In this document: positions 59,404-60,726 of the stretch, in pieces | Position numbering within the stretch: position 1 is the stretch's first letter | Layout of the letters: each line of letters begins with the position of its first letter | From: Proteus terrae | Lineage (GTDB): Bacteria; Pseudomonadota; Gammaproteobacteria; Enterobacterales; Enterobacteriaceae | Assembly: GCF_003144325.1 (NCBI RefSeq) | Contig: NZ_PENS01000007.1 | Location: forward strand, 186,001-250,000 | DNA length: 64,000 nucleotides | Direction: 5' to 3' | The notes under the pieces: model-generated | Databases searched by the model: none | Told to the model about the DNA's origin: nothing | What the model saw: only the letters and a program-made list of their open reading frames with translations | Program-made: the position numbers and the translations under genes

Positions 59404-59607
59404 AAAAAAACGCCTGTATAAAACTATACAGGCGCATAAATATACAATCAGGTCTACAGACGGATGGTGCCTCACTCAACGTTTCGTCCTGTTGATGATG
59501 AATGATGTTCATCGTTAACGTGGACGTAGGCACCGAATAATCGGCTCTGCATCATTCCTAGGTTTATGAAGCCATACACTGTCATAAGGAGTGGAATGAG
59601 CATCTAC
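59404..59607 (-). ncRNA. glmZ: small RNA GlmZ
   Basis: A 204-base sRNA gene recognised by its 5' end (GTAGATGCTCATTCCA), the segment GATGCAGAGCCG, and the conserved 3' part AACGTTGAGTGAGGCACC. It ends with a hairpin and T7. Size and sequence fit enterobacterial GlmZ (SraJ), which with Hfq activates glmS mRNA for glucosamine-6-phosphate synthesis and is cleaved by RNase E with RapZ. E. coli also carries it just beyond hemY. A 68-codon frame inside the region is a chance reading. A sigma-54 promoter lies exactly upstream. Confidence 0.93.
59411..59434 (-). terminator. glmZ terminator
   Basis: CGCCTGTATA and TATACAGGCG form a perfect 10-base stem with a 4-base loop, followed on the minus strand by T7. 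Confidence 0.93.
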
Positions 59608-59618
59608 AAGATAAATAT

Positions 59619-59635
59619 TGCATTAAGCGTGCCAA
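59619..59635 (-). promoter_or_regulatory. sigma-54 promoter of glmZ
   Basis: The minus strand reads TTGGCACGCTTAATGCA. The GG (-24) and GC (-12) elements are exactly 10 bases apart, as sigma-54 requires, and the GC lies about 12 bases before the GlmZ 5' end at 59607. No good -10 hexamer for sigma-70 overlaps it. Confidence 0.85.
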
Positions 59636-59866: not shown

Positions 59867-59884
59867 TGTCTCCTATTGGAGACA
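59867..59884. promoter_or_regulatory. GlrR activator site 1
   Basis: TGTC-TCCTATTGGA-GACA is a perfect match to the GlrR consensus TGTC-N10-GACA. GlrR is the sigma-54 activator of glmY and, in several enterobacteria, glmZ. Confidence 0.8.
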
Positions 59885-59898
59885 TTAAAAATGACAAG

Positions 59899-59916
59899 TG
59901 TTGGCATTTACCGACA
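59899..59916. promoter_or_regulatory. GlrR activator site 2
   Basis: TGTT-GGCATTTACC-GACA matches TGTC-N10-GACA with one mismatch. It starts 32 bases from site 1, about three helical turns. Confidence 0.65.
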
Positions 59917-60127
59917 GATAAAATAAAAGACTTATATTTCATATGATTATAACCAATTATTTTACGTATTTTACCTATCTTTTTATAAAGATTAAAATTC
60001 AGCAATAAATTAAATTCTTAATAATCCTTAAGTGACAAGGGTGGCATTTTTGTTAAAAACGTCATTTGGGCTTTCTTATCTGGAACACATAACAATAAAT
60101 AAAAAAGATAAAAAGAGTAACGAATTA

Positions 60128-60222
60128 TAGAAGTAGAAGTAGAAGTAGAAGTAGAAGTAGAAGTAGAAGTAGAAGTAGAAGTAGAAGTAGAAGTAGAAGT
60201 AGAAGTAGAAGTAGAAGTAGAA
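60128..60222. repeat. hexanucleotide microsatellite (TAGAAG)15
   Basis: Fifteen exact tandem TAGAAG units (60128-60217) plus a partial TAGAA. The array lies between the glmZ upstream region and the tRNA terminator, outside any supported gene. One frame reads (Glu-Val)n and stays open into the antisense of the tRNAs, but a stop codon lies just before it and no ribosome site is present. Its copy number is likely to vary between strains. Confidence 0.97.
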
Positions 60223-60261
60223 ATGGTGTCACGGCTTTTAAAAAGGCAAATCGTAGATACG

Positions 60262-60290
60262 AAAAAGCCTCGATATAATCGAGGCTTTTT
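60262..60290 (-). terminator. tRNA operon terminator
   Basis: AAAAAGCCTCGAT pairs with ATCGAGGCTTTTT around a 3-base loop, directly after tRNA-Pro on the minus strand. Confidence 0.92.
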
Positions 60291-60295
60291 CTTAT

Positions 60296-60372
60296 TGGTC
60301 GGCGAGAGAGGATTCGAACCTCCGACCCACTGGTCCCAAACCAGTTGCGCTACCAGGCTGCGCTACTCGCCG
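60296..60372 (-). tRNA. proM: tRNA-Pro (UGG)
   Basis: The 77-base minus-strand sequence has acceptor CGGCGAG/CTCGCCG (one wobble-free stem), anticodon TGG in CTGGTTTGGGACCAG, T loop GTTCGAATC and encoded CCA. It is the last tRNA of the argX-hisR-leuT-proM cluster. Confidence 0.97.
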
Positions 60373-60400
60373 TCTGTATCACTGTTCTTATCTTGTTTAT

Positions 60401-60487
60401 TGGTGCGAAGGGGGGGACTTGAACCCCCACGTCCGTTAGGACACTAACACCTGAAGCTAGCGCGTCTACCAATTCCGCCACCCTCGC
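60401..60487 (-). tRNA. leuT: tRNA-Leu (CAG)
   Basis: An 87-base class II tRNA with a long variable arm (GTGTCCTAACGGAC) and anticodon CAG in the loop GCTTCAGGT. CCA is encoded. Third in the cluster, as in E. coli. Confidence 0.97.
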
Positions 60488-60509
60488 ATAAACAATAACT
60501 AAGATAAGA

Positions 60510-60586
60510 TGGGGTGGCTAATGGGACTCGAACCCACGACAACTGGAATCACAATCCAGGGCTCTACCAACTGAGCTATAGCCACC
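60510..60586 (-). tRNA. hisR: tRNA-His (GUG)
   Basis: A 77-base tRNA including the extra 5' G (-1) that marks tRNA-His. The anticodon is GTG in GGATTGTGATTCC, and CCA is encoded. Confidence 0.97.
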
Positions 60587-60649
60587 ATAACAGCTATCTT
60601 ATTACTTCTTACAACAACGTTCTTCACCGTAACTCTTAGCACGCTTTAA

Positions 60650-60726
<77 letters not shown>

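Follow-up and report, generated by a model that had tools for sequence, protein, structure and literature searches.

A microsatellite of changing unit behind a tRNA operon of Proteus, a candidate Rho-binding tract upstream of glmZ

Microsatellites and Rho-dependent termination behind tRNA genes are both already known, each on its own. Behind the tyrT tRNA operon of Escherichia coli lie tandem repeats, few in number and about 178 bp long, with a Rho-dependent terminator, and work by Peters et al. from 2009 is reportedly cited in connection with Rho-dependent termination behind tRNA genes. The sites that Rho binds (rut sites) are described, in the parts consulted of two sources (PMC6407284; PMC9160355), as C-rich, G-poor and unstructured stretches of 70-80 nt with regularly spaced C. 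The Arg-His-Leu-Pro tRNA operon is not named in the sections of the Rho-termination literature that were consulted. Among open-licence papers, judged on titles and the beginnings of abstracts, we found none on the locus treated here, and no description of a microsatellite that would serve Rho as a rut tract and stay in place through exchanges of its unit.

Here we describe a perfect TAGAAG array between a tRNA operon and the small RNA gene glmZ in Proteus terrae, in a window of 64 kb, by which we mean the whole stretch of DNA that was analysed. Its position, strand and composition, the turnover of its unit between species and the recurrence of such arrays in other genera are direct observations. 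We propose, at about even chances, that the array serves Rho as a binding (rut) tract behind an intrinsic terminator and has grown by slippage.

The array and its neighbourhood

The features around the array, in the order in which the tRNA operon and glmZ are read, are as follows:

60296-60726, minus strand: tRNA operon Arg(ccg)-His(gtg)-Leu(cag)-Pro(tgg), with the gene order of E. coli argX-hisR-leuT-proM
60261-60291, minus strand: tRNA-operon intrinsic terminator with a near-palindromic stem (listed on the plus strand by the terminator scan, placed on the minus strand by its position behind tRNA-Pro)
60128-60222, minus strand: TAGAAG x 15.8 array, proposed rut tract, appearing as CUUCUA repeats in the minus-strand tRNA-operon transcript
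59899-59916, strand not given: GlrR-type site, motif match with one mismatch
59867-59884, strand not given: GlrR-type site, TGTC-N10-GACA, exact match
59619-59635, minus strand: sigma-54-type promoter of glmZ, exact motif match
59404-59607, minus strand: glmZ small RNA gene (RF00083, 144.7 bits)

Both GlrR-type sites were assigned with TGTC-N10-GACA, which we take to be the GlrR-site motif, and 59619-59635 with what we take to be the sigma-54 promoter motif; one-mismatch GlrR-type matches are not enriched in the window (16 found, 19.5 expected by chance). With the tRNA operon and glmZ both read on the minus strand, the transcript runs from tRNA-Pro through the terminator and, 38 bases further on, into the array; the nearer GlrR-type site follows after 211 bases, then the second such site, the glmZ promoter and glmZ. 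A tRNA-operon transcript that escapes the terminator must cross the array. A preliminary description had set the array between the glmZ control region and the tRNA operon, which stands, at distances of 40 bases from the terminator and 212 from the GlrR-type site, which do not. Its suggestion that copy number could alter a looping distance fails for this genome, because the GlrR-type sites and the promoter at 59619-59635 all lie on one side of the array, which is thus outside the promoter-enhancer interval. It had missed that the array comes after the tRNA terminator in the direction of transcription, that the unit changes from species to species, and that C constantly exceeds G in the transcript.

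The array itself was found as described, perfect and at 60128-60222. Tandem Repeats Finder gives it period 6, 15.8 copies, 100% matches and 0 indels, with a score of 190 that is the highest among the 39 rows for the window, and the rarity claimed for it holds there, since a scan for perfect arrays (period 2-15, at least 4 copies, at least 20 bp) returned no other in the 64 kb. A whole-genome pattern search for (TAGAAG)3 gave 13 overlapping matches, all inside the array, and none elsewhere in the genome or on the other strand. TAGAAG arrays stand at the same spot in the one-contig genomes G003, G005 and G009, which argues against the assembly artefact that the preliminary description had named as a possible refutation; in G007 one lies at this spot on the 3.9-Mb first contig. 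In its short, perfectly repeated units the array is a microsatellite or VNTR. It is not placed as a phase-variable contingency locus would be, lying outside the glmZ promoter-enhancer interval with no supported gene across it, and it lacks the folding inverted repeat of REP-like elements.

Turnover of the unit in Proteus and recurrence elsewhere

All 20 Proteus genomes searched, one per species, match the region, and the spot can be read in 19; G002 (apparently P. myxofaciens) was left out, its contigs breaking between the GlrR-type sites and tRNA-Pro. At fifteen of the 19 readable loci there is a perfect array with 4 copies or more, starting +75 to +88 after tRNA-Pro, and five units occur:

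TAGAAG: 8 Proteus loci, 5.0 to 18.8 copies
TAGAAA: 1 Proteus locus (L017), 14.5 and 16.2 copies around a gap of 54 N
TAGATG: 1 Proteus locus, 4.2 copies
TGGATA: 4 Proteus loci, 4.5 to 5.7 copies
GAGACA: 1 Proteus locus, 7.5 copies

The proposal that copy number varies is thus upheld by a range of 4.2 to 18.8 across these 15 loci, a variation seen between species only; the use as a strain-typing marker that the preliminary description suggested is plausible. No array of at least 4 copies is present in L019, L020, L024 and L026; L019 has TAGATG at 3.0 copies, and L026 (apparently P. mirabilis ATCC 29906) only a degenerate stretch. At L016, TAGAAG stretches of 15.0 and 11.3 copies flank a gap of 120 N. 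Assemblies break or have N gaps in or beside the array at L016 (120 N), L017 (54 N) and L053 and between L028 and L047 (contig ends), so that short-read assemblies may understate the copy number.

In a tree of the tRNA-side flank, the loci of the TAGAAG family form one group of 12 with full support and the other units fall outside it; TGGATA appears in two parts of this otherwise poorly resolved tree. TAGAAG, TAGAAA and TAGATG may come from one ancestral array, and the remaining Proteus units would then be replacements or new arrays.

The full locus set, mostly Enterobacterales, comprised 154 of 165 loci that were read, 138 of them unique by their first 120 nt (19 Proteus, 119 non-Proteus); 149 of 198 genomes matched, and 80 of the 149 were fetched from the top of the list, some already in the set being skipped. 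Related species in the set are not independent data. Within 500 bases behind tRNA-Pro, 5 of the 119 non-Proteus loci have arrays of other units:

TGGCAA: L031, starting at +65 to +70 after tRNA-Pro
AGAAG: L077, Citrobacter sp. JGM124, starting at +65 to +70 after tRNA-Pro
TAAGGA: L135, starting at +65 to +70 after tRNA-Pro
GCGTTG: L057, Yersinia nurmii, starting at +222 after tRNA-Pro
GATGATGGC, a 9-base unit, 7.1 copies: L074:6521-6584, Xenorhabdus innexi, starting at +381 after tRNA-Pro

The first three start near the Proteus range. The X. innexi array lies between a promoter-like, sigma-54-like site and two GlrR-like sites of glmZ, a geometry in which copy number would alter the looping distance, so that the looping idea is not absurd in general. 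Two further repeats, AAGGAC x 15 at a contig end in Serratia plymuthica (L053, a record with no tRNA) and a 9-base unit of 2.8 copies in S. inhibens (L051), are counted among the ten unit types considered below, not among the five array loci.

A scan of 54 named loci around hemY (574 kb) gave 13 perfect arrays; every one falls in the interval from glmZ to the tRNA operon, and one extends to the end of its contig. Five arrays in 58.7 kb of non-Proteus spacer compare with three in 1,088,183 bases of other DNA (p = 1.7e-5), a rough comparison because much of the latter is coding and the species are related. Of the comparison DNA, 400 kb came from four Proteus genomes and 211 kb from E. coli; other tRNA ends contributed 37 kb, and the parts of the named loci beyond the spacer 440 kb, the last from the 43 of the 54 in which both anchors were found.

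Arrays also stand behind two Proteus protein genes. A pyrimidine array lies behind a gene of the Fe-S biosynthesis type (PF01521; L213:6787-6817, orthologues L251-L270), and on the 3' side of this gene arrays occur in 5 of the 20 loci that were fetched, one genome supplying two of the 20, with TCTTC in three, TCTTCTC in one and TCAAAAT in one. Turnover of the unit is therefore not special to the tRNA-glmZ spacer; what is distinctive of the spacer is the persistence of the array. Behind an acid phosphatase gene (PF03767), TTTTCTA x 7.6 (L214:2439-2491) begins directly at the terminator's U-tract and is absent from the 19 other fetched Proteus loci of this gene (1 of 20 positive).

Strand composition behind tRNA-Pro

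In each of the ten unit types, counted as separate, C outnumbers G when the unit is read in the tRNA-operon transcript (10/10, p = 0.002; 9/9 without the 2.8-copy one). Most species without an array share this lean. Over the stretch from +45 to +115 behind tRNA-Pro, the 119 non-Proteus loci have a mean C minus G of +5.3 (89 positive, 29 negative), compared with +2.25 (30 positive, 17 negative) at 48 E. coli protein-gene ends, which were chosen by eye in four 50-kb stretches at gaps of about 115 bases or more (difference p = 0.0025). The lean fades beyond +115, to +1.2, -0.7 and -2.0 in the next three 70-base stretches. In E. coli K-12 the proM terminator is directly followed by a stretch rich in C and poor in G (+16).

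A motif rule identifies tRNA-Pro fragments or REP-like hairpins in this place at 17 of the 119 non-Proteus loci, where C minus G averages -9 with none positive; the other 102 (89 positive, 12 negative) are a post hoc group and were kept out of the p-value. In Serratia and other genomes, partial copies of the tRNA-Pro 3' end and REP-like hairpins, sometimes repeated, stand behind the terminator (L051, L056, L059, L062, L092, L132, L141, L159, L171, L172 and L176), the C-over-G tract being replaced by them.

The lean does not emerge as a rule for all tRNA ends. At 31 other tRNA ends of this genome, a set that omits the end under study (L124) and L098 (cut at a contig end), C minus G is +3.9, a lean in the same direction but short of significance (p = 0.11; 18 positive, 9 negative), and the six ends examined in E. 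coli divide into three positive and three negative. Replication-strand skew is an unlikely cause, because the plus-strand GC skew of the window is -0.057 and the tract runs counter to this regional lean. The array is the strongest C-over-G stretch of 78 nt on either strand of the 64 kb (27, the next having 21), and one stretch of 27 is also present in 400 kb of other Proteus DNA.

A test for rut-like tracts that follows RhoTermPredict in its first step (a span of 78 nt in which C exceeds G and recurs every 11-13 nt) was then applied to both strands. At a C/G of at least 2 the transcript strand was positive at 49 of 137 loci and the other strand at 3 of 137, or 14 of 19 against 0 of 19 in Proteus and 35 of 118 against 3 of 118 outside it; without the C/G threshold the counts are 91 and 42 of 137. 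Five of the 19 Proteus loci gave no tract by this test, two of these five carrying TGGATA arrays. At the P. terrae locus, the array combines an excess of C over G across 78 nt with C every 11-13 nt, and the 136-nt RNA around it is nearly structureless, with a minimum free energy of -1.74 kcal/mol (z -0.42) and a predicted fold that leaves the array unpaired.

A putative backup terminator, its rivals and known systems

On the reading that we favour, at chances no better than even, read-through of the tRNA operon past its intrinsic terminator would yield RNA of CUUCUA repeats, C-rich, G-free and almost unstructured, with C at 12-base spacing; Rho could load on this RNA and halt the polymerase ahead of the GlrR-type sites and the glmZ promoter, so that tRNA-operon transcripts would be kept off the glmZ control region. 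The composition of the tract, not its letters, would be kept by selection and not by mutation bias, and slippage would rebuild the tract with new units and lengths; because Rho needs composition and not sequence, one unit could replace another freely. Rho binding, termination, protection of glmZ, benefit and selection are all conditional parts of this proposal. What speaks for it is that the tract lies behind the terminator on the glmZ strand, that arrays of five units occupy 15 of 19 Proteus loci, that C exceeds G in every unit type, that the lean at +45 to +115 exceeds that of E. coli protein-gene ends, that positives in the rut-like test fall mainly on the transcript strand, and that the strongest 78-nt stretch of the window is predicted to stay unpaired and opposes the window's GC skew. 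Against it count the five Proteus loci without a rut-like tract, the C/G of 2 reached in only 35 of 118 non-Proteus loci, the 17 loci with tRNA-Pro fragments or REP-like hairpins (mean -9), the non-significant lean at other tRNA ends with the even split in E. coli, the unit turnover behind the Fe-S gene, and the X. innexi array, which is on the far side, near the glmZ promoter. As aslB and aslA stand between proM and glmZ in E. coli, shielding of glmZ is not a general purpose of such tracts and would be at most a partial one.

The serious rival is a neutral microsatellite. Under no constraint on spacer length, a pyrimidine-rich tract that slips easily would take its lean from its own history or from mutation bias, and neither array nor copy number would have an effect. 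We consider this possible: ordinary slippage explains the variable copy number, arrays that change unit or length also lie behind the two protein genes, and 4 of 19 Proteus loci, apparently including P. mirabilis, do without an array of 4 copies. Neutrality accounts less readily for persistence at 15 of 19 loci, for recurrence at 5 of 119 others (58.7 kb) when 1.09 Mb holds three arrays (p = 1.7e-5, rough), and for a C excess shared by 10 of 10 units and most array-less species. A variant of the earlier looping idea, that the array acts as DNA by binding a protein or by bending or spacing the region upstream of glmZ, fits its place upstream of the glmZ control region and the X. innexi geometry; we hold it to be very improbable, as in the window the array is outside the promoter-enhancer interval, units that differ by species leave no common sequence for a sequence-specific protein, and E. 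coli retains the C-over-G tract although aslB-aslA separates it from glmZ. Hardly any probability attaches to the array as coding sequence. An open frame of 35 codons (60125-60232, minus strand) does cross it, but it comes from a mechanical frame list with no other support for a gene, and the units, which differ between species, would yield unrelated peptides, for which reasons we reject it.

The proposal of a Rho-binding tract can be carried further, into a version that we think unlikely: period 6 would be kept because two units fit the spacing of about 12 bases at which Rho prefers cytosine, making a near-ideal, self-renewing rut site whose copy number would be a heritable, reversible dial of read-through into the glmZ control region. 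Most units at the spot are hexamers, against periods of 5, 7 and 8 in the three comparison arrays, which favours this version; the period of 5 at the spot in L077, and TGGATA, which fails the spacing test in 2 of 4 species, go against it.

If the Rho-binding reading is true, an RNA tract bound by protein for its composition only would be made and remade by slippage, with function outlasting sequence, and the repeated build-up of different microsatellites in the tRNA-glmZ spacer would be explained. The loci would then offer a natural series of rut tracts, graded in length and unit, for measuring what Rho requires, and copy number at the array might not be a neutral strain marker.

The repeats behind E. 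coli tyrT share with this locus a place just behind a tRNA operon and a link with Rho, here a proposed one; they are few and of about 178 bp, whereas the units here are of 5-9 bp in many copies. REP-like elements are likewise repeated DNA behind the same tRNA operon, in other Enterobacterales (17 of the 119 other loci), but the TAGAAG array lacks an inverted repeat, and its transcript is predicted to stay unfolded. Rho-dependent termination behind tRNA genes, in the part consulted of PMC6797219, has in common with our case the position and a C-rich, G-poor, unstructured transcript; our tract differs in being a perfect microsatellite with a unit that varies from one species to another, in following an intrinsic terminator, and in that the role of Rho is a putative one. 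With bacterial short tandem repeats and VNTR loci, as presented in the portion consulted of PMC12699852, the array shares perfect short units in variable number, presumably through slippage. In contrast to those loci, it lies neither in the frame of a gene nor between promoter elements, and its units are replaced between species while the strand composition stays.
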